A stretch of 32,053 bases of DNA from Myxococcales bacterium (lineage in GTDB: Bacteria > Myxococcota_A > Polyangia > Polyangiales > Polyangiaceae), in NCBI GenBank assembly GCA_903642325.1, contig CAHJWM010000055.1:1-32053 (forward strand), read 5' to 3'. Shown in pieces: positions 8,767 to 29,366 of this stretch (the first letter of the stretch is position 1; each line of letters starts with the position of its first letter). A program made the translations under genes and the position numbers. The notes below the pieces were generated by a model. That model saw only the letters and a list, made by a program, of their open reading frames with translations. It was not told the DNA's origin and made no database searches.

Positions 8767-11013
8767 TCAAAAGCCCGCCTCCAAGCCGACGCTTGGGATT
8801 GTAACTGGGCCGATCGACGTCGAGCCGAAGGTCTCTTTGCTGAGCGTTGCATTCAACACTTCGAACACGAAAGAGAGCCACGCCCTAGGTCGAATTTGCC
8901 AGCGCTTTTCCAGTCGCAGGTCGAGTCTATAAAATGGCGGGTCGCGTGCAGGGTCGCTCAGGGGCGCTCGGAGCAAGTCGCTCCCATCGGGGCTTTTCGG
9001 AGCGCCAGTATAAAACACCACTCGCGAGCCAGCTCGCCAGTGGCGGCCGAGGTCATACGCAACGGCTGCGCTGGCCACATGGGTGCGGTCAACCGAGCTC
9101 GGAAAGGTGTAACCGTCAATGGTCCGCGTCGAACGCGACAAGGTGTACGAAAGGTAGCCGCCCAGCCGTTTGGTCAAGCGTCGGTGCACGAAGAGCTCGA
9201 AGCCCAATGCGCGTCCTGTGCTGCGCGCGTCGATGGCCTCGTCTACGACTCGACGCAAGCTGATGGCGTCGCTCATGTTGAAAAACGCGTTGTGAAAGAC
9301 GCTCGCGGTCGCAGTCGTGTCCGCGGGCAGGTCGACTTCCACACCGGCGCTGGTTTGCCAGCTGCTTTGTAGGCCACCGCGCAGCTTGCCGGGTGCAAGC
9401 CCCGGTACGGGAACCACGAACGAAGGTGGCTGATGCGCGAGCCCGTAAGCGTGCACGATGCGTAGTTTATTGGTGATCTCGAAGCGTGCCGAGACCCTCG
9501 GGTCGACGCTCAGTGCGGTTGCGCCGCCGGAGCCGAACAGGTCGATGCGCGCGCCTGGCGTCACTTCGACACGCGCGGTTGGGCTCCAGACCAGGTCGGC
9601 GAATACGCCGAGCGCGACATCCGTGCGTGGCGGGAACATCGCGTTGAAGCGGAGCGTATCCGTGTCTTCTGGGTCTTCATAGGTTCGGTTGTCCGCGGTG
9701 TAGCCGTCGAGGGTCGCGTCCATCCCCGCACGCAGTAGCGCGTGCTCCCCGAGCATGTGGTGTAGCTCGCTCCGCAGGCCGATCATTTTGTCTCGCGAGT
9801 TCCGTTGATCCGCGATGCGTGTTTGATCCCAGCCCAAAATAACGTCGGTCCGCAGCGTGCTCGAACCGCCAAAGCGGTGGTCATAGCGGAGGTCGAGGCG
9901 ATAAAACTCGGAGCCGAAGACGACGTCCAGGATATGATTCTTGGTCTGCCCGACTAGATCGTACGAGCCGAAGCTGAACGCCGTGACGCGGTCCTGAGGC
10001 GTGATCTCGTACGTGATTCTCGCTTGATAGTCGTGATACGCGAGCGTCACATTTGGCGCCAACAATGAAACGAGCGCAGCCGTGTACGAATAGCGGCCAC
10101 CCAAGAGCACCGTTCCGCGACCGCCCGCAAAGCCCGTCTCGGCGAGGGCGCCCGCGTCGATCAACCTGAGGTTGGCCTCGCCGTGCAGCTCGGGGCGAGG
10201 CTCGCTGACTTCACCGGACACGATTCCGCCCGCGAAGCGGCCGAAGCGCGCGGGGTATCCGCCCGGATAGAGGTCGACGCGCTCCACCATTCCCGGATGT
10301 ACGATCGAGGGTCCTAACCCAACGTGGTAAAGGTACGGCACCCGCACGCCATCCAGGAAGTAGCCGACATTTCCTGGTGGCGCGCCGCGCACGTAAAAGA
10401 ACGGCAGCCCCGATACGATCGGCGTGACCCCCGGCAGCGCTTCGATGGCCCGGAACGGGTCGCCGAATGCACCTGGAAGTTGTCGAACCTCGGCCCTACT
10501 GAACGACGAGACCGCGGGCGCCAACTTCGTGCCAAGGACCTGGATTTCGATCGTGGTCGATACAGCCGGCGCTGGTTGAGCTCCGGTCGGTGGCGAGGCC
10601 CGGGGGGTGTCGAGCTCCGGCTCTGGATGAATGCGGGGGGCGACGAAGCGCACTTGGAAATGGATCACGGATGCCACCGGTGTGGCGCCGCGCGAGGCGG
10701 GCTCGAACGTCCAGCTCGACGCCGCCCGCACCGCCGCGTCCGAAAAACGAGATCTGTTCGTCGTCGTTCGCGCGTCGCGCACGGTGCCGTCGGCGTTGAT
10801 CGACAACTTCAAGACCACGACCGCGTCTCCGGTCGCGGCGGGCGGGTAGGTGACGTCCGCGCCGGACCGAAGGTGCGGCGGAACGATCCGCCGCGAAGCG
10901 CTCGTTGGCTTTGCGCCAGGAGCCGCTTCCGCGTGCGCCGCCGGCTCGCTCAGCAAGCGAGAGCAGGTCAGCCAGAGGCCCAAGACCAGCCCGCGCTTGG
11001 AGAGCCTGGTCAT
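8767..11013 (-). CDS. TonB-dependent receptor with its own N-terminal TonB-like domain
   Basis: A 748-residue outer-membrane transporter. After a signal peptide (GLVLGLWLTCSRLL, cleavage probably near AAHAEA), residues about 45-130 match a TonB C-terminal domain (VVVLKLSINADGTVRDARTT, SDAAVRAASSWTFEPA). A Pro-rich linker leads to the plug domain (about 155-275: EVRQLPGAFGDPFRAIEALP, FFYVRGAPPGNVGYFLDGV, VERVDLYPGGYPARFGRFAG). The rest is a beta-barrel with alternating aromatic strands, ending in Phe (VGLEAGF) as outer-membrane barrels do. ATG 11013 is preferred over the GTG two codons earlier. It starts about 37 bases after the stop of the upstream lipoprotein gene on the same strand, so it is probably the last gene of that operon. 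Energised uptake or export through it is inferred from family; the cargo is unknown. Confidence 0.9.
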   Translation of the reverse strand: MTRLSKRGLVLGLWLTCSRLLSEPAAHAEAAPGAKPTSASRRIVPPHLRSGADVTYPPAATGDAVVVLKLSINADGTVRDARTTTNRSRFSDAAVRAASSWTFEPASRGATPVASVIHFQVRFVAPRIHPEPELDTPRASPPTGAQPAPAVSTTIEIQVLGTKLAPAVSSFSRAEVRQLPGAFGDPFRAIEALPGVTPIVSGLPFFYVRGAPPGNVGYFLDGVRVPYLYHVGLGPSIVHPGMVERVDLYPGGYPARFGRFAGGIVSGEVSEPRPELHGEANLRLIDAGALAETGFAGGRGTVLLGGRYSYTAALVSLLAPNVTLAYHDYQARITYEITPQDRVTAFSFGSYDLVGQTKNHILDVVFGSEFYRLDLRYDHRFGGSSTLRTDVILGWDQTRIADQRNSRDKMIGLRSELHHMLGEHALLRAGMDATLDGYTADNRTYEDPEDTDTLRFNAMFPPRTDVALGVFADLVWSPTARVEVTPGARIDLFGSGGATALSVDPRVSARFEITNKLRIVHAYGLAHQPPSFVVPVPGLAPGKLRGGLQSSWQTSAGVEVDLPADTTATASVFHNAFFNMSDAISLRRVVDEAIDARSTGRALGFELFVHRRLTKRLGGYLSYTLSRSTRTIDGYTFPSSVDRTHVASAAVAYDLGRHWRAGSRVVFYTGAPKSPDGSDLLRAPLSDPARDPPFYRLDLRLEKRWQIRPRAWLSFVFEVLNATLSKETFGSTSIGPVTIPSVGLEAGF

Positions 11014-11050
11014 GAGCACACGGTAGATGCTCCTGCCTCGCGCGACGCTG

Positions 11051-12793
11051 TTATTCGGGTCGCTCGATGCCGGCGAGAATCAAGCCGCGCTCGCCCAGGT
11101 CGTAAAAATGGGTCAAGAGTGGACCTGGCGCGACGCCGTTGGTCACCCCCACCGTGGTGTAGCGCTCGATGGCGTTGTCGGGCAGCGATGCCGCGTGCTC
11201 CGCGCGTGGCAGCTCGACGCACACCTCACCGTCCGGATGCACCAGAGCGCGCACGGCGCTCGGATCGGACGTGCCGCGAGTCACGTCGGACGCGTAGTGA
11301 AACGCTTTCGTTGGAAAGGTGCCGGTGCTGCGCGAAAGATCGGTGGCACACATCGTTCTTCCCTCCACGCGAACGTCCGCCAATGGCGAGAGCTTCGAGA
11401 AATAACGCCTCAAGATGATGCGCTGACGCTCGAGCAAGACGTTGACCAGAAATTCGGTGTGCTCGGGCTTCGTGAAGTTACCGACGCCTACGGCCGCCCG
11501 CACGTCCTCTTCCGTGAAGCGCGCGATGATGCGCGTTGCCCAGGCCGCGTCGCGCTCGGTCATGCGCGAGTAGGCAGGGTTTGGGTACTCGCCGCGCCAC
11601 AGGTCCGGGTCGAAATCACGCGCGCTGAAATAACCGAAATTCTCCGCGCCCGGCGTACGCGCCGCGTGATCCCACGGCCGCGCTTGCACGCCCAATGTGG
11701 CGAAGTCTTCGAGGATGTAATTGAAATCCAACAAATAGGAATGGCCGAGACGACGCGAGAAACCGTCGACGTCCCACTCGCTTCCGAAACAATCGCCGAG
11801 GTCGATGTACCAATGGCGCACGTAGCCCGGGCTGCGCGGGTCCTTTTCATTGGTCGGCATCCACGTCGCCATGCTGTTTTGTTCGCGTGAATCGAAGTGG
11901 TTGAGCCAAGCGCCGAGCACACGCGCGCCTCGCAGATCTCGACGGTTCTCGTGTTTGATGGTGTCCGACGGATCGTCGCCGCGCGTGCCCTCATACTGAA
12001 ACGGTCCGAGCGGTTCGCCGGGCAGCCAGCGCGAAGCCACGGCTCGATACAGCTCCCCGCGACGACCCGTGGCTGAAAGGATCTTGTCGAGCAGCTTTTC
12101 GTCGAACTTCTTCGCGGGGCCGACATTGGCCTTGATCGTCAGGCCCGGCTTCAATGTAAGTGCCGATTTTTTGAAGTAAACGACGCTGTCGCACGGAGCC
12201 CACCATCCGGCCGCATAGTAAAAGCGGGTGGCGATGGCGGCGGCGCCCGTGGCGCGCTCAGCCTGGGCGTCGTCGGTCTTCAACATGAATTTCGTACCCT
12301 CGACTTTCACGCGAAAGCCCGGGTTAGCGCCGTTGTCTTTGCCGTGATCGATGACCCAGGTTCCGTCCGCTGGGTCCGGCTTGAGCTCCGCGCCCTCCGA
12401 GCAGTAACCTGAAGCCACCGTTTCAGGTGTCATGGGGTGGGCACCGATGCGATTGGTGAACCAGCTCGAGTCCGGGACCTCGTCGAACGCGTTCACGTTC
12501 TCTGCTTCGCCGTAGGAATCGACCTGAAAGAGCTTGGCGACGGGCCGAAAGATGGCGTTGTCAGCCGCGTCCCACGAGAACGACGACTCGTATTGCTCGG
12601 GCACGCACGCCGCGGCCTCTACGCCCTCCTTCGCAGGCGTATCGGGGCACTGGACCCTTACTGGGTCCAGATCTTGATCCCGCACGACCGGCGGGCTCAG
12701 GGCAAAATGGCGCGGATCCCCCGCGCACGCGACGAGCGCCGCGGCGCTCGTCAACCAACATGCAAACCTGGAAGTGTTGCGTTCAGAGGCCAT
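11051..12793 (-). CDS. Lipoprotein with an atypical kinase-like fold signature (copy 1)
   Basis: A 580-residue lipoprotein (perfect lipobox LVAC, C23). I recognise no named domain, but the order of conserved residues resembles atypical PI3K/HipA/FAM20-like kinases. KFMLK (K172) would be the ATP-binding Lys. E179 in QAERATGAAAIATRFYYAAG would be the helix-C Glu. HFDSREQNSM gives D301-x4-N306, the spacing of PI3K and HipA catalytic loops, and WYIDLGDCFG gives D331 of a DxG-type metal-binding motif. A long C-terminal region follows (SRMTERDAAWATRII, KPEHTEFL). ATG 12793 is chosen because it overlaps the upstream barrel stop by 11 nt exactly as in copy 2 and gives the right signal peptide. It should be anchored in an envelope membrane, where ATP is normally absent, so enzymatic activity is uncertain. 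Paralogue of the gene at 14329-16086. Confidence 0.72.
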   Translation of the reverse strand: MASERNTSRFACWLTSAAALVACAGDPRHFALSPPVVRDQDLDPVRVQCPDTPAKEGVEAAACVPEQYESSFSWDAADNAIFRPVAKLFQVDSYGEAENVNAFDEVPDSSWFTNRIGAHPMTPETVASGYCSEGAELKPDPADGTWVIDHGKDNGANPGFRVKVEGTKFMLKTDDAQAERATGAAAIATRFYYAAGWWAPCDSVVYFKKSALTLKPGLTIKANVGPAKKFDEKLLDKILSATGRRGELYRAVASRWLPGEPLGPFQYEGTRGDDPSDTIKHENRRDLRGARVLGAWLNHFDSREQNSMATWMPTNEKDPRSPGYVRHWYIDLGDCFGSEWDVDGFSRRLGHSYLLDFNYILEDFATLGVQARPWDHAARTPGAENFGYFSARDFDPDLWRGEYPNPAYSRMTERDAAWATRIIARFTEEDVRAAVGVGNFTKPEHTEFLVNVLLERQRIILRRYFSKLSPLADVRVEGRTMCATDLSRSTGTFPTKAFHYASDVTRGTSDPSAVRALVHPDGEVCVELPRAEHAASLPDNAIERYTTVGVTNGVAPGPLLTHFYDLGERGLILAGIERPE

Positions 12794-14159
12794 GGTGGGA
12801 TCCAATTACGATGCGCAAAGAAGAGTAGTGAAAGCCCTGCTCGAAGGGGTCTGTACCGCCAGCCACCAGGAGCTCCAGCCCAGACTCTGGCGAGCCGTTC
12901 GAGCGAAGACCGATGGCTGTGCTCAGCCGAAATAGGTCGGGGTCGAAGCCGTCCAAATGACGCCCGAACACGTTGCCAACGTCGGCCTGAAGCACGCCGT
13001 TCAGGTAAACCCAGACTGGCCAGGTGTACTGAGCCGTGGCCACGATGGCGCTGCGATCGATCAGCCGCCCCAACAAAAATCCGCGCATTGGCCGGCTGCC
13101 ACCGAGCGAAACCTGATCGGTGAAAGGGATCGTTCCGCGCAACGGATCGGTGAAATCGGCGGCCACGCCCAGGCCGAGCACGCGGCGCTTCCAAAGGTCT
13201 ATCCCAACCCCCGCTGCGCCGCCGTACGCGACCCACGCTCTGCGCTTCGCAGCGTCGCTCGACGGGGCGATGACGCTCTCACCGTGTGCTTCGAGGCGCA
13301 CGCCGGTACCGACATACGGATCGGCCTGGCGCGTATCTAGCGCGACGGACAGCGCTTGAAACGCCGCAGTGTAACCCTGTTCGTAACCCGGCGGCGAGGG
13401 CACCGTACCGTTCGAGACGGCATCGAACAGCGCGGGCTCCGCGCAGCAGCCGCCGTCACCAAAGCTCAGCGTGCGCACCCCGGCGCGAATGCTCAGCGCG
13501 CTCAGGTGCCAAAAGTCGTTCTGATAGCCGAGCGCAAACTCGGACGTCATTGCCTGGTATCGATACCGGGGATCGCTCGGGCTCCGCGGACCGATGCCAT
13601 AGAACGGCAAGTCTTTGCGCCGCACGAAGCTGACCTGCCCGGCGATCACCTGCCGCGGCGTGAGCGCGTAGTCGTCGCTCGCGTGAACCGAGACCCAATC
13701 CGGGCCCCACGTTCCAAAGTGCACGGCGAGCGTGTTCGGATCGGCGAGAAAGTATTTCCAGGTCAAGTTGAAGCCAACGCTCGGCTTCAATCCGAAATCG
13801 AACAATGCAGATGGGAATAGCGCCACGTTCTGCCGTTCACCGAACGTGAAAAAGCTGATCACCTGCTGCGGCCATTCGTTGCGCTCGGCCGCGCGGACCA
13901 AGGCCCCGACCGGCTCGCGCACCACGTACTCGCTCACCAGCCAAAGCGGGAACAGTATGACGCGCGGCACCCACAGTAATGCAGGCCCCACCGTTGGCGG
14001 GGGTGGACCGCCGTAGCGTTGGGATTCTCGCTTTGGAGCGCCAAATGCCGTCGCCGAATGAAGGATCCCAACGACCAGTAGGGCGATGGCCAAGCCAGAT
14101 GAAAAAAAAAGCCGATGACGACGATTAATTTTGAAGATTAAGCTACGTGCGGATAACAC
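12783..14159 (-). CDS. Omp85/BamA-superfamily outer-membrane barrel without POTRA domains (copy 1)
   Basis: A 458-residue protein. A signal peptide (GLAIALLVVGILHSATAFGA) precedes a Pro-rich segment (YGGPPPPTVGPALLWVPRV) and a short region LVSEYVVREPVGALVRAAER. The rest is beta-barrel-like. The Omp85 signature is near the end: GGSRPMRGFLLGRL (353-366, with the R-G-F/Y of the superfamily), then AQYTWPVWVYLNGVLQADVG, and GLRSNG strands to a C-terminal GSHHGL. No POTRA repeats are visible, so it is a short barrel rather than an assembly-machine BamA. It starts with GTG at 14159, 32 bases past a TTGACC hexamer. Its stop overlaps the kinase-like lipoprotein start (ATGGCCTCTGA), implying translational coupling and a shared function. 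Possible roles are surface display, secretion or insertion of its lipoprotein partner. Confidence 0.8.
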   Translation of the reverse strand: MLSARSLIFKINRRHRLFFSSGLAIALLVVGILHSATAFGAPKRESQRYGGPPPPTVGPALLWVPRVILFPLWLVSEYVVREPVGALVRAAERNEWPQQVISFFTFGERQNVALFPSALFDFGLKPSVGFNLTWKYFLADPNTLAVHFGTWGPDWVSVHASDDYALTPRQVIAGQVSFVRRKDLPFYGIGPRSPSDPRYRYQAMTSEFALGYQNDFWHLSALSIRAGVRTLSFGDGGCCAEPALFDAVSNGTVPSPPGYEQGYTAAFQALSVALDTRQADPYVGTGVRLEAHGESVIAPSSDAAKRRAWVAYGGAAGVGIDLWKRRVLGLGVAADFTDPLRGTIPFTDQVSLGGSRPMRGFLLGRLIDRSAIVATAQYTWPVWVYLNGVLQADVGNVFGRHLDGFDPDLFRLSTAIGLRSNGSPESGLELLVAGGTDPFEQGFHYSSLRIVIGSHHGL

Positions 14160-14170
14160 TCGACCATTGG

Positions 14171-14199
14171 GTGCCGTTTTCGAGCTGAAGGGTCAAGAA
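14171..14199 (-). promoter_or_regulatory. Conserved promoter-like block upstream of barrel copy 1
   Basis: On the minus strand this block contains TTCTTGACCCT followed by GAAAACGGCAC. Twenty-three of 29 positions match the block upstream of the other barrel (17460-17488). TTGACC resembles a -35 hexamer. No canonical -10 is seen at 16-18 bases, so an alternative sigma factor or an activator site is possible. The GTG start lies close downstream, so the leader must be very short if this is the promoter. Confidence 0.5.
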
Positions 14200-14328
14200 T
14201 TAATCGCACCACCGGCCCTCGGGCTCGCTTTCGCTTCCGCAATCGCCAAGAAAGCCGCTTTGCCCGCCGGTTTGGGCCCAGGCGCGGGTAGCCGAGGACG
14301 CGGCCAGGTCCGAAAGAGAGGACTTGCC

Positions 14329-16086
14329 CTACGAGCCCGGACGCTCGATCCCCACCAGCCGCAGGCCGCGCTTTGGGCCGAGGTCGAAAAAGTGCACCTC
14401 AAGCGGGCCCGGCGCAATGCCGTTCGTCATGCGCACGGTTACATAGCGCTGCACGGCATTGTCCGGGAGCGAGGCCGCGAGCGTTGCTTGTGGCACATCC
14501 AAACATGCGTCGTCGTTTTCGACGAGCACGCTCCGAGACGGCACCGGGTCCGCTTTGCCACGCGCTACGTCCGCAGCATAGTGAAACGCCTCACGCGGAA
14601 ACGTCCCGGTCTTGCGCGCCAAATCCGTCGCGCACAGCTGGCGGCCCAGTACACGGACATCGGCCAGCGGCGACAGCTTCGAAAAATAACGCTTGAGAAT
14701 GGTGTGCTGACGATCGCGCAGCACGCGGTACAGATATTCGGTGTGCTCGGGTTTGGTCAGATTCGCCACGTTGACCGCGGCGCGCACGTCTTCTGCCGTG
14801 AAGCGGGATATGATGCGCGTCGCCCAGGCCGCGTCTCGCTCGGTCATGCGCGAGAATGCCGGGTTCGGATACAAGCCGCGCCACAGGTCGGGGTCGAAAT
14901 CACGCTCGCTGAAATAACCGAAATTGGTAGCGCCGGGCGTTCTATAGGCTCGGTCCCAGGGGCGCTCTTGCACTCCGAGCGTGATGAAGTCTTCGAGGAT
15001 GTAGTTGAAGTCGAGCAAGTAGGAGTGACCCAGGCGACGCGAGAAGCCATCCTCACTCCATTCGCTTCCGAAACAGTCGCCGAGGTCGATGTACCAATGG
15101 CGCACGTAACCCGCGCTCCGTGGGTCCTTGGGGTTTTCCGCCATCCAAGTCGACATGCTGTTTTGCTCGCGCGAATCGAAGTGATTGAGCCACGCCGCCA
15201 TCACGCGAGCGCCGCGCAGATCACGCCTGTTTTCGTGCGCGATGGTGTCTGACGGGTCGTCGTCTCGGGTTCCCTCGTAGGTGAATGGTCCGAGCGCCTC
15301 GCCCGGAAGCCAGCGCGAGGCGACGGCCCGGTAAAGATCGCCGCGTGTGCCACCCGCCGACAAGATTTCGCTCAGCCGTTTCTCATCGAACTTGCGGACG
15401 GGTCCGACGTTGGCTTTGACCGTCAACCCCGGTTTCAGCTTGAGCACCGATCTTTTGAAATAGATGACGCTGTCGCAAGGCGCCCACCAACCGGCGGCAT
15501 AGTAGAGCCGAGACGCGACCGCGGCCGCGCTGGTGGTGCGCTCGGCCTGCGCATCATCGGTCTTGATCATGAATTTCGTGCCGTCGACCTTGATGCGGAA
15601 ACCAGGGTTGGCGCCGTTGTCCTTGCCATGGTCGATGAGCCAGCTGGCGTCCGCTGCCTCGTCTGGCTTTAGCTGAGGCCCTTCGGAGCAATAGCCCGAG
15701 GCCACCGCTTCCGGGGACATGGGCTGCGAGCCGATGCGGTTCGTGAACCAGCTGGAGTCCGGCACTTCGTCGAAGGCGTTGACGTTCTCGGCCTCCCCGT
15801 AAGAATCGACCTGAAAAAACTTGGATATGGGTCGGAAGATGACGTGGTCCGCGGCGTCCCAAGCGAACGAGGACTCGTACGGCTCGGGCATGCAAGCCTT
15901 GGCTTCGGCGTCCGCTCCGGCTTTCTTCGCCGTATCCGGACAATCGATCTTCACTAAATCGAGGTCTTGATCGCGCAACACTGGCGGGCTCAGCGCGAAG
16001 CGGCGCGGATCTTCTGCACAAGAGACCAGCGCCGCCGCACACGCCAGCCGACACCAGAGTCTGCGCCGGAACCGTTCAGATGCCAT
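14329..16086 (-). CDS. Lipoprotein with an atypical kinase-like fold signature (copy 2)
   Basis: A 585-residue paralogue of the lipoprotein at 11051-12793, alike over its whole length and nearly identical across the presumed active site. Lipobox LVSC (C23). The pattern is K175 in KFMIK, E182 in QAERTTSAAAVASRLYYAAG, D304-x4-N309 in HFDSREQNSM, and D334 in WYIDLGDCFG. Since all five residues are kept in both copies while flanking positions differ (KHENRR/AHENRR, PTNEK/AENPK), selection appears to preserve this site. ATG 16086 overlaps the upstream barrel stop by 11 nt (ATGGCATCTGA). The function is unknown; possibilities are an exported kinase, another nucleotidyl-transfer enzyme, or a ligand-binding pseudokinase. 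I have seen related uncharacterised proteins in Acidobacteria and Myxococcota, which is recollection and not a search. Confidence 0.72.
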   Translation of the reverse strand: MASERFRRRLWCRLACAAALVSCAEDPRRFALSPPVLRDQDLDLVKIDCPDTAKKAGADAEAKACMPEPYESSFAWDAADHVIFRPISKFFQVDSYGEAENVNAFDEVPDSSWFTNRIGSQPMSPEAVASGYCSEGPQLKPDEAADASWLIDHGKDNGANPGFRIKVDGTKFMIKTDDAQAERTTSAAAVASRLYYAAGWWAPCDSVIYFKRSVLKLKPGLTVKANVGPVRKFDEKRLSEILSAGGTRGDLYRAVASRWLPGEALGPFTYEGTRDDDPSDTIAHENRRDLRGARVMAAWLNHFDSREQNSMSTWMAENPKDPRSAGYVRHWYIDLGDCFGSEWSEDGFSRRLGHSYLLDFNYILEDFITLGVQERPWDRAYRTPGATNFGYFSERDFDPDLWRGLYPNPAFSRMTERDAAWATRIISRFTAEDVRAAVNVANLTKPEHTEYLYRVLRDRQHTILKRYFSKLSPLADVRVLGRQLCATDLARKTGTFPREAFHYAADVARGKADPVPSRSVLVENDDACLDVPQATLAASLPDNAVQRYVTVRMTNGIAPGPLEVHFFDLGPKRGLRLVGIERPGS

Positions 16087-17440
16087 GGTGCGACCCAATT
16101 ATGATGCGCAATGACGAGTAATGGAAACCCTGTTCGAACGGATCCGTCGCGCCGGCCACCAGCAGCTCCAAACCGGAATCGGGTGAGCCGTTCGAACGGA
16201 TGCCGACCGCCGTGCTCAGCCGGAACAGATCCGCGGAAAACCCATCGAGGTGCGGACCAAATACGTTGCCCACGTCGGCCTGTACGACGCCATTCAGATA
16301 CACCCAGACCGGCCAGACATACTGGGCGGTGGCCACGGCCGCGCTGCGATCGATCAGCCGGCCCATCAGGTAACCGCGCATCGGGCGTTCACCGCCAAGT
16401 GAAACCTGATCGGTGAACGGGATCGTTCCTTTCAGCGGATCGGTGAAGTCTGCTTCCACACTCAACCCGAGCACCCGGCGTTTCCACAAGTCGATTGTCA
16501 CTCCGGCGAGCCCGCCGTACCCCACCCACGCCCGCCGCGCGACGTCATTGTGCGGCGGCGCAACGACGCCTTCTCCGTGCGCTTCGAGGCGAAGGCCAGT
16601 ACCGATATAAGGGTCGGCTCGACGCGTGTCGATTGCTACTGATAGACTCTGAAATTCGGCAATGTAGCCCTGATGGTAGCCGGGGGGTGACGGCACCGTG
16701 CCATTGGCGACCGCATCCGAAAGATGGGGCTCCCCACAACAGCCGCCGTTGCCGAAGCTCAGTGTCCGCATGCCCGCGCGCACGGTGAGCGCGCTCAAGC
16801 GCCAAAAGTTGTTTTGGTAGCCGAGCGCAAATTCGGACGTCATCGCCTGATAGCGGTAGCGCGGATCGCTCGGGCTACGGGGGCCGATGCCATAAAATGG
16901 CAGGTCTTTTCGACGTACGAAGCTTGCTTGGGCGGCGATCACTTGATGCGGGGTGAGCGCGTACTCGTCGCTCGCTTTCACCGCTATCCAATCGGGCCCC
17001 CAGGTTCCGAAGTGCACCCGGAGCGTGTTCGGATCGGTGAGGAAGTACTTCCAACCTAAATTGAAGCCGACGCTCGGCTTCAAGCCGAAATCGAACAGCG
17101 CCGAAGGGTACAGCTCGATGTTCTGCCGGGGACCGAACGTGAAGAATTGGATTACGGCGTCCACCCAATTATTGCGTTCGGCCGCGCGCGTGAGCGCGCC
17201 GACCGGCTGGCGCAGGACGTATTCACTCACTAGCCAAACTGGAAATAAAACCACGCGCGGCACGTACATGAGGGACGGCCCGACGCGCGGCGGGGGGGGA
17301 CCGCCATAGTGTTGATGCTCACGCTTCGGATGGGCGAACACCTGGCTCGACCAAAAAACGACGAGCAGTAAGCTTAGCCAACGCGCCGCGACAGCGCGCC
17401 GGCGAGCGCGAACACGTATTGTGGAAATCAAGCCAAGCAC
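16076..17440 (-). CDS. Omp85/BamA-superfamily outer-membrane barrel without POTRA domains (copy 2)
   Basis: A 454-residue paralogue of the barrel at 12783-14159, with the same layout. The signal peptide (WLSLLLVVFWSSQVFA) precedes KREHQHYGGPPPPRVGPSLM, the motif LVSEYVLRQPVGALTRAAER, a barrel with FVRRKDLPFYGIGPRSPSDP, the Omp85 motif GGERPMRGYLMGRL, and a C-terminal GSHHGI. The frame is open to a TTG at 17485, but that TTG is part of the conserved TTGACCCT promoter-like block. GTG 17440 aligns better with the GTG start of copy 1 (both give a basic RR pair at positions 13-14 before the hydrophobic core). It is the first gene of the presumed five-gene operon. Confidence 0.8.
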   Translation of the reverse strand: MLGLISTIRVRARRRAVAARWLSLLLVVFWSSQVFAHPKREHQHYGGPPPPRVGPSLMYVPRVVLFPVWLVSEYVLRQPVGALTRAAERNNWVDAVIQFFTFGPRQNIELYPSALFDFGLKPSVGFNLGWKYFLTDPNTLRVHFGTWGPDWIAVKASDEYALTPHQVIAAQASFVRRKDLPFYGIGPRSPSDPRYRYQAMTSEFALGYQNNFWRLSALTVRAGMRTLSFGNGGCCGEPHLSDAVANGTVPSPPGYHQGYIAEFQSLSVAIDTRRADPYIGTGLRLEAHGEGVVAPPHNDVARRAWVGYGGLAGVTIDLWKRRVLGLSVEADFTDPLKGTIPFTDQVSLGGERPMRGYLMGRLIDRSAAVATAQYVWPVWVYLNGVVQADVGNVFGPHLDGFSADLFRLSTAVGIRSNGSPDSGLELLVAGATDPFEQGFHYSSLRIIIGSHHGI

Positions 17441-17459
17441 CGAGATACCGAGTTTACGC

Positions 17460-17488
17460 GTGCCGGTTTCACGTGGCAGGGTCAAGAA
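17460..17488 (-). promoter_or_regulatory. Conserved promoter-like block upstream of barrel copy 2
   Basis: Counterpart of the block at 14171-14199. On the minus strand it reads TTCTTGACCCT, then GAAACCGGCAC. It keeps the TTGACC hexamer and the CGGCAC element at the same spacing. It argues that each cassette copy has its own promoter and that 17440 rather than 17485 is the start codon. Confidence 0.5.
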
Positions 17489-20578: not shown

Positions 20579-23500
20579 ATGACGATCGCTGTCGTTGCCG
20601 AGAAGCCGTCCGTCGGGCGTGACTTGGCGAGTGCCCTCGGAGCTACCCGACGGGGTGACGGAAAGCTTACCGGCAATGGCTACGTCGTGACTTGGGCAAT
20701 CGGTCATTTGGTCGGCTTGGCTGAGCCCGAGGGCATTCGACCGGAATGGAAGCGTTGGCGGCGGGAGGATCTGCCACTATTGCCCGAACATTGGCCGCTC
20801 ACCATCTTCGAGGCGACCCGCCCGCAGTTCGAGGTAGTGCGCCAGGTGCTCAACGCCCCCGATGTCACGGCCGTCATCTGCGCAACGGACGCGGGGCGGG
20901 AAGGTGAGCTGATCTTCCGGCTGATTTACGAGGCGGCCAAGTGCCGTCGCCCGGTGTCGCGGCTGTGGATCTCGTCGCTGACGGAGGCCGCGATCCGCGA
21001 AGGCATGCGCCGCGTGCGACCAGCGAAGGAGTACGACGACCTAGCGGACGCCGCCCTCGGCCGTAGCCGAGCGGACTGGCTCGTGGGCATGAATTTGTCG
21101 CGCGCCTATGGGCTTGCGCTCGACGCTCCGCTGTCGGTCGGCCGAGTTCAAACTCCGACGCTCGCCATGCTGGTCGAACGTGAGCTCGAGATCCGCGACT
21201 TCGTGCCGGAGGATTACTTGGAGGTCGTGGCCACTTTCTCGCCGAGAAGCGGCGAATCGTACCGCGGCACTTGGTTCGAGCCGGGCAAGGCGGAGCACCC
21301 GCAGCGGTTGCCCGCTTCGGGGCAACAGGCCGAGCAGGCCGTGGCCCGCGCGCTCGTGGGCCAAGCGCAGGTCGAGCGTGTGACGTCGCGGAGCAAGCGC
21401 TTGCCTCCGCCGCTCTTGTATGACTTGACCGAGCTGCAACGGCACATGAATCGCCTCTACGGCTCGTCGGCGCAGCGCACGCTCGATGCCGCGCAGGCTC
21501 TGTACGAAAAACACAAACTGCTGAGTTACCCGCGCACCGACAGCCGCCATCTGTCGGCGGCCGAGGCCAGCGCCTTGCCGGCCATCGTGAAGGCAATCGC
21601 CGCGCCCTATCTCGCGTTGCTCGCGGAAGGTAGCGGTGAGCGCGCGCTCTCCCGCCGTTTCGTAGACGACGCGAAAGTGACGGATCATCACGCCATCATC
21701 CCCACGGGAGCATCGGCTGCTGGCTGCGCGCTCGGCAGCGACGAGCGGCATGTGTACGAGCTCGTGTGTCGGCGTCTGTTGCAAGCTTACCATGCCGACT
21801 TCGTGTGGGCGGCGACTGAGGTCATCACCGCGATCCACCCGCTTGCCAGCGCCGAGCCGGTCGACCGATATCGCAGCCTGGGCACTGCCGTCCAGCAGCA
21901 GGGCTGGAAGGTGCTCGATCTGGGGGAGCCGAAGCCGCCTCGAGAAAAGTCTGAAAATAGGCGAAATGTAGCGGCTAGCGAGGAGGATAGCGTGCTGCCA
22001 GCGGGCCTTCGGGACGGCCAGCCGCAGCGCGTGTTGGGCGCGAAAGCGATACCCAAGACCACTCGTCCGCCGCCGCGCTTGAACGACGCCTCATTGCTGA
22101 CGGCCATGGAGACGGCCGGAAAAACCTTGGATGAAAAAGAGCTGTCGGAGGCGATGAAGGACAGCGGCCTGGGCACGCCGGCAACACGAGCGAGCATCAT
22201 CGAGACCCTGATCGCCCGCGGCTATGTCCTGCGCGAGGGTAAAGCGCTGATTGCGACCGAGCGCGGTCTCGGGCTGATCGCGGTGGTCGACCCCGAAGTA
22301 AAGAGCGCGGCCATGACCGGCGCCTGGGAAGCCCGGCTTCAGGCAATTGCCCGGGGTCGGGGTGCTTTGCCGCATTTCTTGCACCAAATTGAAGCATACG
22401 TGACGGCGGTGGTGAGCCGCGTGCCACCGGTGTTGCCGCCACTGGCCGGTCAATCGGAGCGCAAGCCGCCCAGGCCAACGGCGCGCTCGAGCTCTGAAGC
22501 GCCGCCCGTCGCCTCGCCTAACACGTCGATGGCTGGCGAGCTTTCCGTACCTCCGCGCGGACCGCGACGCACGCCCAGCGCGGCGGCGCCCAGTGAGCTT
22601 GCCAGCCTATTGCGTGAGCGCTTTGGATTCAGCACCTTCCGCCCGCATCAACAGGCGGTGTGTGAAGCGGTGGCCAGCGGCGAGGACGTATTGCTCGTCA
22701 TGCCTACGGGCGCGGGAAAGTCGCTGTGCTATCAGCTGCCAGGCCTGGCCCGCGGGGGAACGACCCTGGTCGTGAGCCCGCTCATCGCTTTGATGGAAGA
22801 TCAGGTCGCGCGCTTACGCGCGCTCGGCCTCCGCGCCGAGCGCATTCACTCGGGTCGGACTCGGCTCGAGTCGCGGCAAGTGTGTGCGGATTACGTGGCC
22901 GGCGCGCTCGATTACCTGTTCATCGCGCCCGAGCGCCTGGGCGTGGCCGGCTTTACCGAGCTCCTCGCGCGGCGGCCGCTCGGCTTGATAGCGATCGATG
23001 AAGCGCACTGCATTTCGCAATGGGGCCATGATTTCCGGCCTGATTACCGTCTGCTGGGGCAACGCTTGCCGATGTTGCGGCCTGCGCCGGTCGTGGCGCT
23101 CACGGCCACCGCCACGCCGCGCGTGCAAGAAGACATCGTAGCGCAGCTCGGCTTGGGCTCGGTGCGCCAGTTCATTCATGGCTTTCGCCGTCACAACCTG
23201 GCCCTCGAAGCATTGGAAGTACCGCCCAAAGATCGCCCGGGCCGCGCGCTTCAGTGGCTGTCCGCGGCGGATCGCTTGCCCGCGATCGTGTATGCGCCCA
23301 CGCGCAAAGCGGCCGAGCACGTGGCCTCGGTGCTCGGCGCAAAGTTTAGAGCGCAGCCGTATCACGCGGGGCTCACGGCGGAAACGCGCGAGCGGGTGCA
23401 GTCGGACTTCCTCGCTGGGCGATTGGACGTGGTGGTCGCGACCGTCGCCTTCGGCATGGGCGTGGACAAGGCCGACATCCGCACCGTGCTGCACCTCGCC

Positions 23501-24340
23501 CTGCCGGGCAGCGTCGAATCCTACTATCAAGAGATCGGGCGTGCCGGTCGGGACGGGAAACCGTCGCGCACCGTGCTCATGCACCACCTCGCCGATCGCA
23601 AAACCCATGAGTTCTTTTTGGAACGCGACTACCCGAGCGAGGCGCTGCTTGAAAAGCTGTTCAAGGCCCTCTCCCTCGCGCCCGTCAGCCCGGACGCGCT
23701 GCGTAAGAAGACGCGCATCGCAAAGAGTGATTTCGACAAAGCGCTCGAGAAACTGTGGATACACGGCGGCGTGCTTGGTGTCCCGCAAGCCGACCTCGTG
23801 CGCGGTGACGAAGGGTGGCGTGCGCCGTATGCCGCGCAGCGTGCCCTGCGTATCGAACAGCTCGAGCGGGTAGGCAAATTCGCCCAAGGCCGCCAATGCC
23901 GCATGGTCGGCCTCGTCGAGCACTTTGGTGACGAAGCGGATTCCGGGCAGGCCTGCGGTCTCTGCGACGTCTGCGCCCCTGATGCCTGCATCGCAGTCCC
24001 TTCGCTTGGGCCTCCACCCAAGGTGAACGCCGCGGCTGGCAAGCGCAGTCGTAAGCCGGGGAAACGGCGCGCTCGCGGCTCGTCGCGCATTCCGGCGGTG
24101 GTCCTCCCTGCTAGCGGCGCGAGCGCCGGGCTCGTGGCAAGCCTGCGCGCATGGCGCCTGCTAGAGGCCAAAAAAAAACGCGTTCCCGCGTTCCGCATCT
24201 TGACTAATCGCGCGCTGGTTGCCATCGCTGAGGCGCGCCCGGCAAGCACGGCCGCCCTGCGCGGTGTCGCTGGCATCGGGCCCAAAGTGCTGCGGAGCTA
24301 CAGCGCAGAGCTGGTGGGCCTGTGCACGCGTAACTTCTGA
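20579..24340 (+). CDS. DNA topoisomerase III fused to RecQ helicase (with HRDC domain)
   Basis: A 1253-residue fusion. Residues 1 to about 615 are a type IA topoisomerase III. The Toprim part has VAEKPS (E8) and CATDAGREGELI (D104, E108). The middle has GRSRADWLVGMNLSRAY and SVGRVQTPTL, and the active-site Tyr Y317 lies in LLSYPRTDSRHL; the expected core is complete, without C-terminal zinc fingers. A Pro/Ser-rich linker (about 616-672) leads to RecQ: MPTGAGKS (708-715), DEAH (807-810), the aromatic-rich loop HCISQWGHDFRPDY, and QEIGRAGRDG (984-993). Four Cys (C1107, C1126, C1129, C1132) form the RecQ zinc site. An HRDC-like domain ends the protein (about 1180-1250). RecQ and TopoIII are known to cooperate in decatenation and in resolving recombination intermediates; here they are one polypeptide. 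All catalytic residues are present, and no frameshift is evident. Confidence 0.95.
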   Translation: MTIAVVAEKPSVGRDLASALGATRRGDGKLTGNGYVVTWAIGHLVGLAEPEGIRPEWKRWRREDLPLLPEHWPLTIFEATRPQFEVVRQVLNAPDVTAVICATDAGREGELIFRLIYEAAKCRRPVSRLWISSLTEAAIREGMRRVRPAKEYDDLADAALGRSRADWLVGMNLSRAYGLALDAPLSVGRVQTPTLAMLVERELEIRDFVPEDYLEVVATFSPRSGESYRGTWFEPGKAEHPQRLPASGQQAEQAVARALVGQAQVERVTSRSKRLPPPLLYDLTELQRHMNRLYGSSAQRTLDAAQALYEKHKLLSYPRTDSRHLSAAEASALPAIVKAIAAPYLALLAEGSGERALSRRFVDDAKVTDHHAIIPTGASAAGCALGSDERHVYELVCRRLLQAYHADFVWAATEVITAIHPLASAEPVDRYRSLGTAVQQQGWKVLDLGEPKPPREKSENRRNVAASEEDSVLPAGLRDGQPQRVLGAKAIPKTTRPPPRLNDASLLTAMETAGKTLDEKELSEAMKDSGLGTPATRASIIETLIARGYVLREGKALIATERGLGLIAVVDPEVKSAAMTGAWEARLQAIARGRGALPHFLHQIEAYVTAVVSRVPPVLPPLAGQSERKPPRPTARSSSEAPPVASPNTSMAGELSVPPRGPRRTPSAAAPSELASLLRERFGFSTFRPHQQAVCEAVASGEDVLLVMPTGAGKSLCYQLPGLARGGTTLVVSPLIALMEDQVARLRALGLRAERIHSGRTRLESRQVCADYVAGALDYLFIAPERLGVAGFTELLARRPLGLIAIDEAHCISQWGHDFRPDYRLLGQRLPMLRPAPVVALTATATPRVQEDIVAQLGLGSVRQFIHGFRRHNLALEALEVPPKDRPGRALQWLSAADRLPAIVYAPTRKAAEHVASVLGAKFRAQPYHAGLTAETRERVQSDFLAGRLDVVVATVAFGMGVDKADIRTVLHLALPGSVESYYQEIGRAGRDGKPSRTVLMHHLADRKTHEFFLERDYPSEALLEKLFKALSLAPVSPDALRKKTRIAKSDFDKALEKLWIHGGVLGVPQADLVRGDEGWRAPYAAQRALRIEQLERVGKFAQGRQCRMVGLVEHFGDEADSGQACGLCDVCAPDACIAVPSLGPPPKVNAAAGKRSRKPGKRRARGSSRIPAVVLPASGASAGLVASLRAWRLLEAKKKRVPAFRILTNRALVAIAEARPASTAALRGVAGIGPKVLRSYSAELVGLCTRNF

Positions 24341-25499: not shown

Positions 25500-28400
25500 A
25501 TGCCTCTTTCCGCATTTCACGTTGCCGTTCAGCGTTGGTTCAGCGAGCGGCTGGGCGAGCCTACGCCGCCACAGCGCGAAGGTTGGCCCGCGATCCGGGG
25601 CGGCAAGCACACGCTCATTGCCGCGCCCACCGGCTCGGGCAAAACCTTGGCCGCGTTCCTCTGTGCCCTCGACGGGCTACTGGTACGTGGCGTCGCGCTC
25701 GAAGCGACCACGCAGGTGCTGTACATCTCGCCGTTGAAGGCGCTCGCCAGCGACATACAAAAGAATCTGGAGGCGCCGCTAGCAGAGATTCGCGCGCTCG
25801 ACCCGAGCTTGCCGGAGGTGCGCGTTTGCGTGCGCACGGGCGATACGTCCGCCAAGAGCCGGGCGGCGATGACCAAACGCCCGCCCCACATCTTGGTCAC
25901 CACGCCAGAATCGGCCTACATCTTGCTAACCAGCGAGGGCGGGCGGCAGATGCTGAGCTCCGTACGCACGGTGATCGTGGACGAGATCCACGCCCTCGCG
26001 CGTGATAAGCGCGGCTCCCACCTGGCCCTCACGCTCGAACGCCTGGACGCGCTCGCGGGCCGCTCCGTGCAACGCATCGGCTTGTCCGCCACCCAAAAGC
26101 CACTCGAGGAAGTGGCGCGCTTCCTGGTGGGTGTGGGCCGCGACTGCGTGCTCGTGGACGCGGGTCATCTGCGGGAGATCGATCTCGGCATCGAGCTGCC
26201 GCCGTCGCCGCTGACCGCGGTTTGCTCACATGAAGTGTGGGACGAAATTTACGAACGAATCGCGACGCTCATCCGTGAGCACCGGACCACGTTGGTGTTC
26301 GTCAATACACGCAAGATGGCAGAGCGCGTGGCCGCGCGGCTTGGGTCCCGTCTCGGGCAAGCCGGAGTCGCCTGCCACCATGGAAGTCTGGCCGCGCCTC
26401 GCCGCCATGACGCGGAGCAACGCCTCAAGAGAGGCGAGCTCAAAGTGCTGGTCGCGACCGCCTCGCTCGAGCTCGGTATCGACATCGGGGATGTCGACCT
26501 CGTGCTTCAGATCGGGGCTTCGCGCTCCATCGCGACGCTGCTCCAGCGCGTGGGCCGCGCCGGTCACGGCGTGCGGCGCACGCCAAAAGGCCGCGTGTTT
26601 CCCCTTACTTTGGACGAGCTGGTGGAGGCGGCGGCGCTCCTCCGCAGTATTCGCGCCGGGAACCTCGACCGCACCCCGCAGCCCGGGCGGCCACTCGACA
26701 TTTTGGCGCAACAGATCGTGGCCGCTTGCGTCGCCGAGACGTGGGACGAGGCGTTGTTGTTTCAAATGTTGCGGCGCGCCTGGCCGTACCGTGAGCTCAC
26801 GCGCCGCGACTTCGACGAAGTCGTGAAGATGCACACCGAAGGCCGCTGGGCGCTCCTCCACCGCGACGGCGTTGGGCAGCGGCTGCGGGCAACTCGGCGG
26901 GCGCGTTTGACCGCAATCACCTCGGGCGGGGCGATCGCCGACAACGCGGATTATCAGGTCGTCCTCGACCCCGAAGGGACACTGGTCGGCACGCTGAACG
27001 AGGATTTCGCGATCGAGTCCAACGGTGGAGACATCTTCCAACTGGGTACGGCATCGTGGCGTATCCTGCGCGTCAGCGGCGGCGTGGTGCGCGTCGCAGA
27101 CGCGCAGGGCTCACCCCCCACGATCCCCTTCTGGCTCGGTGAAGCGCCAGCGCGCACGCGCGAGCTGTCGAACGAGATTTCGCGCCTGCGCGAGCACGCC
27201 CTGCTCGATCAGCCGCTGATCGCCGGCGAGATCGGCGAGGCGGCGGCGCTTCAGCTCGCCGAATATGTCTCAGCTGGGGTGAGTGTGCTGGGCGTCGTGC
27301 CGACCCAGCGGCGGGTCGTTTTGGAGCGCTTCTTCGATGAAAGTGGCGGCATGCAGTTGGTCTTGCATGCACCGTTCGGCGGCCGCATCAATCGGGCGTG
27401 GGGTCTGGCCTTGCGCAAGCGCTTCTGCCGCGGCTTTGGCTTCGAGTTGCAAGCCGCTGCCAATGAAGAAGCGATCGTGCTTTCGCTCGGCCCCCAGCAC
27501 AGCTTTCCGCTCGCGGAAGTGTTCGACTATTTGAGCCCAGAGACGGCGCAGGCGCTCTTGGTGCAAGCGCTCCTGGCCGCGCCCATGTTCAAGACGCGCT
27601 GGCGTTGGAACGTATCGCGCGCCCTGCTCGTCGAGCGCATGCGCGGGGGCAAGCGCACCGCGCCCCCGCTCGTGCGCATGCGCGCGGACGATCTTCTGGC
27701 CGCGAGCTTTCCCGCGGCCGTGGCCTGTGGCGAAACCTTGCCGCCCGGCGACATCGAGGTGCCCATGGACCACCCTCTCGTCCGTCAAACGGTCTTCGAC
27801 TGTTTGAATGAGGCGCTGGACATCGAGGGATTTTTGGCCGTACTACGCGATTTACGCGATGGCCGCATCGAGCGCGTTGCGATCGATTCGCCGGCCCCCT
27901 CGGTGTTCGCGCATGGCATTTTAGCGGCTCAGCCGTACACGTTCTTGGACGACGCACCGCTCGAAGAGCGGCGCACGCAGGCGGTGATCAGCCGCCGCAC
28001 GCTGGACGTAAAGTCAGCGGACGAGCTCGGCGCGCTCGATCCCGACGCCATCCGTCGCGTGCGCGAAGAAGCATGGCCGGCGCCGACCTCCGCCGAAGAG
28101 GTCCATGAAGCGCTGCTTTGGATGGGCTATGCAACGGTAGCAGAAGCTCGGCCCTGGTCGGATTGGATGCAAGAGCTCGCGCGTGCCGGCCGCATAGAGC
28201 TCGTGGGTGATCGCTACTTTGCCTTCGAGGCATCGCGCGAGCCAAAAGAAATATGGCGCGGCCGCCTGGAAGCGCTCGGCCCCATCTGCAGTGATGATCC
28301 ACTTTTGCTCGAGCTGGAGAGCGAAGGCTTCGCGCTCCGTGGCCGCTTCGAAGGCCGCGCAGGTTGGTGCAGCCGGCGTCTGCTCGCGCGCATTCACCGT

Positions 28401-29366
28401 TATACGCTGGAGGGTCTGAGAAAAGAGATCGAGCCCGTGACTGGTCTAGAATTTCTGCGCTTTTTAGCGGCCTGGCAGCACTTGGATGCGGACAAGCAGC
28501 TGGACGGGCCGCGCGGCGTGCTGGAAGTGATCCGCAAGCTTGCCGCGTTCGAAGTGCCCGCGCTGGCTTGGGAGGCGAGTGTGCTGCCGGCGCGCGTTCG
28601 CGGTTACAAGCGGGAATGGCTGGACGAGCTCACGCTATCGGGAGAGGTCGTGTGGGGCCGCCTGTGGGGCAGCGGCGCGGCGCCGATCCGCAGCACGCCC
28701 GTGTGTCTCGTCCCACGGGATCACTTGGAATCTTGGCTCGGGCTGTCGAACGCTCCGCAGGCGTCCGAGCTTGGCCACGCGGCTGAGTTGATCCATGGCT
28801 TGCTTGCCGCGCGCGGGGCCATGTTCGCGCAAGGCTTGCAGCGCACCTCCGACCTTCATATGGACGAGCTCGATGAAGGCTTGGCCGAGCTCATCGCGCG
28901 CGGGCTCGTCACCTGTGATTCGTTCGGCGGTTTGCGATCGCTATTACTCACGCCGTCCAAGCGCCGCTCGGCGGTAAAAATGGCCGGCCGCTGGAGCCTG
29001 CTTCGGCCAGGAAAGCTCGAGGCGCCGCCGGCGGAGTTCGTCGCACGGCAATTACTGCAGCGCACGGGCGTCGTTTTTCGAAAGACGGTGGCGCGTGAGA
29101 AGCAGCCGCTGCCCTGGCGTGACTTGCTCCGGGTGCTGCGTACCCTCGAAGCCCGCGGTGATGTACGCGGTGGTCGCTTCGTGGCGGGCTTCGATGGCGA
29201 GCAATATGCCCTGCCTGAAGCCATCACCCTGCTGCGTGCCGTGCGGCGTCGCGGCCCCGGCGAGCCCCTCCATGCGTCCGCCGCCGATCCTCTCAACTTC
29301 CGCGGTATCCTCACCCCCGACGAGCGCGTTTCGCCACTCTCTCGTCAAAAGGTATTGGTCGCCTAG
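25500..29366 (+). CDS. lhr: Lhr-family DEAD/DEAH-box helicase, long form
   Basis: A 1288-residue superfamily 2 helicase. Motif I APTGSGKT (42-49), Ia ISPLKALASDI, TTPES (134-138), motif II DEIH (161-164), motif III SAT (196-198), FVNTRKMAE (267-275), VATASLELGIDIGDVDLVLQ (318-337) and motif VI QRVGRAGH (349-356) are all intact and typical of Lhr. After the two RecA folds comes the Lhr core with winged-helix and beta-sheet regions to about residue 860. More than 400 further residues follow, as in long bacterial Lhr proteins, whose C-terminal part is winged-helix and glycosylase-like (family knowledge; not all landmarks checked). Lhr is a 3'-5' single-strand DNA translocase unwinding DNA or RNA-DNA hybrids and is linked to repair. 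It follows the TopoIII-RecQ gene on the same strand. Confidence 0.92.
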   Translation: MPLSAFHVAVQRWFSERLGEPTPPQREGWPAIRGGKHTLIAAPTGSGKTLAAFLCALDGLLVRGVALEATTQVLYISPLKALASDIQKNLEAPLAEIRALDPSLPEVRVCVRTGDTSAKSRAAMTKRPPHILVTTPESAYILLTSEGGRQMLSSVRTVIVDEIHALARDKRGSHLALTLERLDALAGRSVQRIGLSATQKPLEEVARFLVGVGRDCVLVDAGHLREIDLGIELPPSPLTAVCSHEVWDEIYERIATLIREHRTTLVFVNTRKMAERVAARLGSRLGQAGVACHHGSLAAPRRHDAEQRLKRGELKVLVATASLELGIDIGDVDLVLQIGASRSIATLLQRVGRAGHGVRRTPKGRVFPLTLDELVEAAALLRSIRAGNLDRTPQPGRPLDILAQQIVAACVAETWDEALLFQMLRRAWPYRELTRRDFDEVVKMHTEGRWALLHRDGVGQRLRATRRARLTAITSGGAIADNADYQVVLDPEGTLVGTLNEDFAIESNGGDIFQLGTASWRILRVSGGVVRVADAQGSPPTIPFWLGEAPARTRELSNEISRLREHALLDQPLIAGEIGEAAALQLAEYVSAGVSVLGVVPTQRRVVLERFFDESGGMQLVLHAPFGGRINRAWGLALRKRFCRGFGFELQAAANEEAIVLSLGPQHSFPLAEVFDYLSPETAQALLVQALLAAPMFKTRWRWNVSRALLVERMRGGKRTAPPLVRMRADDLLAASFPAAVACGETLPPGDIEVPMDHPLVRQTVFDCLNEALDIEGFLAVLRDLRDGRIERVAIDSPAPSVFAHGILAAQPYTFLDDAPLEERRTQAVISRRTLDVKSADELGALDPDAIRRVREEAWPAPTSAEEVHEALLWMGYATVAEARPWSDWMQELARAGRIELVGDRYFAFEASREPKEIWRGRLEALGPICSDDPLLLELESEGFALRGRFEGRAGWCSRRLLARIHRYTLEGLRKEIEPVTGLEFLRFLAAWQHLDADKQLDGPRGVLEVIRKLAAFEVPALAWEASVLPARVRGYKREWLDELTLSGEVVWGRLWGSGAAPIRSTPVCLVPRDHLESWLGLSNAPQASELGHAAELIHGLLAARGAMFAQGLQRTSDLHMDELDEGLAELIARGLVTCDSFGGLRSLLLTPSKRRSAVKMAGRWSLLRPGKLEAPPAEFVARQLLQRTGVVFRKTVAREKQPLPWRDLLRVLRTLEARGDVRGGRFVAGFDGEQYALPEAITLLRAVRRRGPGEPLHASAADPLNFRGILTPDERVSPLSRQKVLVA

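Follow-up and report, generated by a model that had tools for sequence, protein, structure and literature searches.

A tandem cassette of a predicted POTRA-less Omp85-type barrel and a predicted kinase-fold lipoprotein in a myxococcal genome, with homologs in several phyla and linkage to nucleotide transporter genes

The window, which here means the whole stretch of 32,053 nucleotides that was analysed (positions 1 to 32,053 of contig CAHJWM010000055.1 from a Myxococcales bacterium, assembly GCA_903642325.1), contains two tandem copies of a cassette that consists of a barrel gene (B) followed by a lipoprotein gene (K), all on the minus strand. Relatives of the source genome are Myxococcota of the Polyangiaceae type. 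The genes and features of this region are listed below.

16076..17485, minus strand: barrel 1 (B1); start codon uncertain
14329..16086, minus strand: lipoprotein and predicted kinase 1 (K1); 585 aa with the ATG start, lipobox LVSC
12783..14159, minus strand: barrel 2 (B2); 79% identical to B1, PF01103 at 21.5 bits
11051..12793, minus strand: lipoprotein and predicted kinase 2 (K2); 580 aa with the ATG start, lipobox LVAC, protein identity of 76% to K1
16076..16086, minus strand: 11-nt overlap of B1 and K1, ATGGCATCTGA
12783..12793, minus strand: 11-nt overlap of B2 and K2, ATGGCCTCTGA
8767..11019, minus strand: TonB-dependent receptor in which a TonB C-terminal domain (residues 66-126) precedes the plug; similar in its N-terminal part to the myxochelin receptor MxcH

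In both 11-nt overlaps, the ATG of the K gene lies within the 3' end of the barrel gene, and the longer TTG-started ORFs are not needed. The two copies encode proteins with identities of 76% for K and 79% for B, and the low dN/dS ratios of the K and B gene pairs (0.11 and 0.12) point to purifying selection on both copies. Synonymous divergence is nearly equal for the two pairs (dS of 1.48 and 1.42), as fits a single duplication of the cassette as a unit, and K1 and K2 are sisters in the K tree with a support of 0.996. The initial annotation had described two complete copies in the same order, both intact and diverged and with an identical 11-nt overlap, and this description agrees with the ORFs, the identities and the selection estimates. 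It had also placed a TonB-dependent receptor closely behind the cassettes on the same strand. The position was confirmed (11019-8767, minus strand), but the receptor has no conserved counterpart in the other loci compared and was rejected as a member of the cassette.

Elsewhere in the window, a 1253-aa ORF at 20579-24340 on the plus strand encodes topoisomerase III (Toprim, Topoisom_bac) fused to a RecQ helicase (DEAD, Helicase_C, RecQ_Zn_bind, HRDC), a BLM/Top3-like pairing in a single chain. The fusion is apparently also present in 4 of the 29 relatives searched (G005, G006, G010, G045), and the ORF is followed in the window by a large Lhr-type helicase at 25500-29366.

In the AlphaFold2 model of B1 (pLDDT 87.2), a signal peptide is followed by a long helix at about residues 68-104 and then by a 16-strand Omp85 barrel. 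The model matched BamA (VIA Z 24.2, 305 residues, rmsd 3.8) and TamA (VIA Z 23.6, 297 residues, rmsd 4.2), and Sam50 was also among its matches, all three with Z values of 23-24; TamA was the closest Foldseek match. A sequence search of the PDB with B gave only weak, meaningless matches. The Omp85 profile PF01103 scored 20.2 and 21.5 bits on the two barrels in the window, slightly below the cut-off of 24, and it matched 42 of the 51 members of the B family at E <= 0.1, with a best value of 1.1e-18. A loop-6 motif of the (V/I)RG(F/Y) type precedes strand 12 as RPMRGY in B1 and RPMRGF in B2, and is present in 34 of the 51 members. No POTRA profile was matched among the families listed for the 51 members, and essentially helices precede strand 1 in the B1 model. 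Judged by its predicted structure, B is a POTRA-less 16-strand protein of the Omp85 superfamily; an Omp85-like barrel without POTRA had been proposed in the initial annotation.

For K1, the AlphaFold2 model (pLDDT 93.4) shows a kinase domain at about residues 140-475 and a C-terminal beta domain at residues 476-585, in the numbering of the 589-aa ORF. The best match of the model was CtkA (VIA Z 15.0, 233 residues, rmsd 3.9), which was also placed first by Foldseek (E 6.8e-5), followed by PI4KIIalpha (Z 13.1), CotH (12.8), Fam20C (12.6) and HipA (about 9.4). The Lys, catalytic Asp, Asn and metal-binding Asp were assigned as conserved columns in an alignment of 73 homologues, in which K179 was found in 71, D308 in 72, N313 in 72 and D338 in 71 of the proteins. 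In profile searches, 7 of the 73 family members matched HipA_2/HipA_C weakly (best E 0.016); NCBIfam gave no match, and a PDB sequence search with K found nothing. The invariance of a DEVPxSSWF motif was not counted as evidence, since the scan of species genomes picked loci by that pattern, which the genome surveys did not. The kinase-like signature that had been noted in the lipoprotein thus reappears as a kinase fold in the predicted structure, and K is predicted with high confidence to be an atypical kinase of the group that includes HipA/CtkA, CotH and Fam20.

The lipobox column holds a Cys in 65 of the 73 K homologues and lacks it in some proteins from Acidobacteriota and Gemmatimonadota. 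Two further pairs of Cys residues, 137-208 and 489-532, were both present in 56 and 58 of the homologues, respectively, and in no case was only one Cys of a pair found. They have thus been gained or lost jointly, as disulfides would be, which together with the signal sequences and the lipobox fits an extracytoplasmic location of K.

We compared the neighborhoods of K genes across genomes. Among 59 relatives, a simple search placed most K genes beside B, and a profile search found B next to almost all of the remaining ones. From Myxococcota, 113 evenly sampled genomes were surveyed: K was identified at 17 places in 12 of them, B immediately preceded it in the same orientation in 17/17 places, and the same 12 genomes hold both genes. 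B was also upstream of 46 of the 49 K genes at loci from other phyla, the remaining three lying at contig ends. After deduplication, B was adjacent to K in 92/105 Myxococcota loci and in 49/49 loci of other phyla. The scan of species genomes recovered relatives of K from Myxococcota, Acidobacteria, Gemmatimonadota, Eisenbacteria, Zixibacteria, Thermodesulfovibrionia (Nitrospirota) and Rhodothermales, and phylum surveys around single records identified K in 27 of 149 genomes (Acidobacteria), 5 of 121 (Gemmatimonadales) and 5 of 198 (Rhodothermales). The pair is conserved in at least six bacterial phyla, and some pairs are convergent or have the reverse order, which argues against a mere frozen gene order. 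The pairing is near-obligate, and the earlier suggestion that barrel and lipoprotein act as a pair is borne out as far as adjacency is concerned. The initial annotation had named rare adjacency of the two families, or a barrel prediction unlike Omp85, as findings that would refute the cassette, and both checks came out in its favor. That annotation also suggested that the two copies may serve different substrates. A set of 13 Myxococcota K genes (12 catalytically intact and one degenerate) has no adjacent B, which counts against an obligate partnership. PAP2 proteins are encoded upstream of K genes that lack the Omp85 barrel, at L135:3970-5972 and at the corresponding positions of L087 and L092. 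The PAP2 gene and K of L135 are separated by a gene for a 292-aa protein that has an apparent signal peptide and belongs to no known family. A replacement partner is possibly encoded here.

Other candidate explanations and variants were rejected. No K gene was found on the 72,556 plasmids searched, which speaks against a spread by plasmids, and PADLOC gave no match for K, B or the transporter described below, which speaks against a role in anti-phage defence. Two ORFs in metagenome assemblies that resemble natural fusions of B and K (L147:1236-3968 and L133:715-3603) look like deletions or assembly errors and were left out of the analysis. In both, the barrel is cut short at its end, by about half in L147 and by the last strand in L133.

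An all-against-all comparison of the flanking genes identified a further conserved neighbor, which is a TLC ATP/ADP transporter (NTT) by Pfam (PF03219). Eight of the nine carrier proteins scanned scored above the cut-off of 21 bits, and the ninth (L123:668-2947) fell below it with 19.3; one NTT neighbor matched structures of the ADP,ATP carrier of plants at E 1.4e-13. Of the 91 cassettes that have full flanks and an intact catalytic set, 46 had an NTT gene within about 6.5 kb, and such linked cassettes were seen in Myxococcota, Acidobacteriota, Gemmatimonadota, the Rhodothermales group and others. At the genome level, NTT was present in 27 of 28 relatives with an intact K and in 11 of 31 others (p = 5e-7, a value that ignores shared ancestry), with one truncated locus, in G014, excluded from the intact set. 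The K-bearing genomes have 54 NTT loci, of which 21 are at most 8 kb from a cassette, as compared to an expectation of 0.19. The remaining 33 lie away from it, and half of the intact cassettes have no nearby NTT, so that NTTs do other things too, which counts against a supply of nucleotide to K by NTT.

Tight operons have the orders NTT-phosphoesterase-B-K (L150), B-K-NTT-NTT/HEAT (L154) and NTT-B-K-PAP2 (L127). PAP2 genes were found beside 23 of the 91 intact cassettes with full flanks, with 19 of 60 among the intact Myxococcota cassettes, and calcineurin-like phosphoesterase genes beside 6 of the 91. No NTT, PAP2 or phosphoesterase gene was found in the window, which counts against a model in which these genes serve the cassette; the NTT of the source genome is on another contig (C59). 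Fusions of NTT with HEAT repeats were observed near cassettes in L154 (3724-6894), L091, L097, L125 and L148, and some loci also encode cyclic-nucleotide-binding proteins. The NTT-HEAT architecture was already described, with its function left open, by Major et al. (2017, PMC5381601). Relatives of these carriers may transport other nucleotides or, as some do, NAD (PMC5381601), a point against ATP as the supplied nucleotide.

Kinases that have lost catalytic residues were counted by alignment, with split HMM matches merged or dropped beforehand. At loci with full flanks, all 12 degenerate cassettes keep the barrel and none is linked to NTT, as compared to 46/91 intact cassettes (p = 0.0005, again ignoring shared ancestry). 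NTT linkage is thus confined to intact kinases at these loci. For flanks of any length, B was present at 21 of the 23 degenerate loci and NTT at one, L105, in which three of the four catalytic residues are kept. In the K tree, many of the degenerate kinases group in a single large clade and the others are several isolated lineages, so that catalysis has been lost several times independently. A pseudokinase branch in which the catalytic residues are lost and the barrel is kept comprises L021, L022, L023, L025, L029, L030, L031 and L078. Since the barrel is kept after catalytic loss and NTT is absent, the presence of B follows the K protein and that of NTT its reaction, and the model of NTT as a supplier of nucleotide and of B as a structural partner or exporter rests mainly on this difference.

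On balance, we consider it moderately probable that the cassette is a module of an outer-membrane Omp85-type barrel and an extracytoplasmic atypical kinase with a nucleotide supply from NTT, which phosphorylates a target in the envelope or at the surface. In this model, K would be exported by Sec, usually lipid-anchored, and located at or on the outer membrane, and B would be its dedicated partner, either as an anchor or as an exporter to the surface. The NTT/TLC carrier would move ATP or another nucleotide out of the cytoplasm, K would phosphorylate a protein, glycan or lipid, and the PAP2 or calcineurin-like phosphatases encoded nearby in some genomes may reverse or balance this phosphorylation. 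We infer the enzyme activity of K, the nucleotide export, the complex of B and K, their location and the phosphatase roles from the predicted folds and the gene neighborhoods. Kinase-fold proteins can also catalyze other reactions, which counts against reading K as a kinase.

The retention of the barrel through several independent catalytic losses makes the role of B independent of the kinase reaction, as would be expected if the barrel carried K across the outer membrane in a minimal form of two-partner secretion, with K outside the cell or attached to its surface and the NTT linkage secondary. B also shares its fold with known translocators, and the K proteins of some Acidobacteriota and Gemmatimonadota that lack the lipobox Cys resemble what free cargo might look like. 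However, B lacks the POTRA domain by which TpsB and PlpD recognize their cargo, the 13 Myxococcota K genes mentioned above have no adjacent barrel, and the neighboring NTT and phosphatases better match a system that is retained by the cell; we consider a pure exporter and cargo pair unlikely.

The same retention speaks against B as a substrate of K, since that role does not predict it. According to this explanation, K would phosphorylate or gate a barrel that moves lipid, nucleotide or another solute. The one-to-one pairing agrees with it, as do the Foldseek result, given that the TamA family is linked to lipid transport, and the PAP2 genes beside nearly a third of the intact Myxococcota cassettes, but we regard it as distinctly improbable. 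Finally, the kinase fold of K could serve as a mere scaffold, with K acting as a pseudo-enzyme or a binding protein. Degenerate lineages with a retained barrel exist, and the periplasm is not expected to hold bulk ATP, but the K/D/N/D set is kept in more than 70 of the 73 homologues, from several phyla, and at loci with full flanks only intact kinases are linked to NTT, which makes a scaffold very improbable.

The favored kinase module with nucleotide supply was compared to known systems. The "noNterm" class of Omp85 proteins is defined as a barrel without POTRA or other N-terminal domains, for which a role in membrane-protein biogenesis was merely suggested (Heinz and Lithgow, 2014, PMC4104836), in a paper that does not contain the word kinase. 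B is likewise POTRA-less, a likeness drawn from the class description, and differs by its predicted dedicated kinase partner. In two-partner secretion (TpsB/TpsA) and PlpD, an Omp85-type barrel likewise has a gene or domain as its dedicated partner. In contrast to these, the cassette has no POTRA and no TPS domain, for which no profile match was found in the K family, its partner is a kinase-fold lipoprotein, and secretion is here a proposal.

K shares the kinase fold and the DxxxxN...D catalytic layout with CtkA/HipA/HipT and CotH, of which CtkA and CotH are the nearest solved bacterial structures, but K alone has an export signal, usually a lipid anchor, a partner barrel and, at its C-terminus, an additional beta domain. 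Its identity to CtkA is about 13%, and most members of the family are below detection by Pfam. Fam20C and other eukaryotic kinases of the secretory pathway likewise have an atypical kinase fold, work outside the cytosol and need a nucleotide there; Fam20C differs in being eukaryotic, in the secretory pathway and without an Omp85 partner. For the NTT/TLC carriers of free-living bacteria, passages of Major et al. (2017, PMC5381601) leave the functions open, with energy exchange, photosynthesis and development as proposals, and draw no link to kinases, whereas NTT here adjoins kinase cassettes.

No such system of barrel, kinase and NTT was found in the open-access papers searched; the parts belong to known superfamilies, and it is the system as a whole that would be new. 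We tentatively suggest, as a possibility to be taken seriously, a hitherto undescribed system of diderm bacteria in which NTT carries ATP through the inner membrane for use by an outer-membrane kinase that is held or displayed by a dedicated POTRA-less Omp85 barrel, which may give a role to some NTTs of free-living bacteria and to part of the "noNterm" Omp85 proteins. To our knowledge, little is known about bacterial phosphorylation outside the cytoplasm, since an ATP pool is not expected there. Here, a single gene neighborhood, kept over at least six phyla, offers a predicted kinase, nucleotide carrier, outer-membrane partner and phosphatases. If the model is correct, it would explain the ATP/ADP-carrier homologs in some free-living bacteria, which Major et al. 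(2017, PMC5381601) left open, and POTRA-less Omp85 barrels would gain the function that was left open for them (PMC4104836). Kinase chemistry at the outer membrane would then become directly testable.
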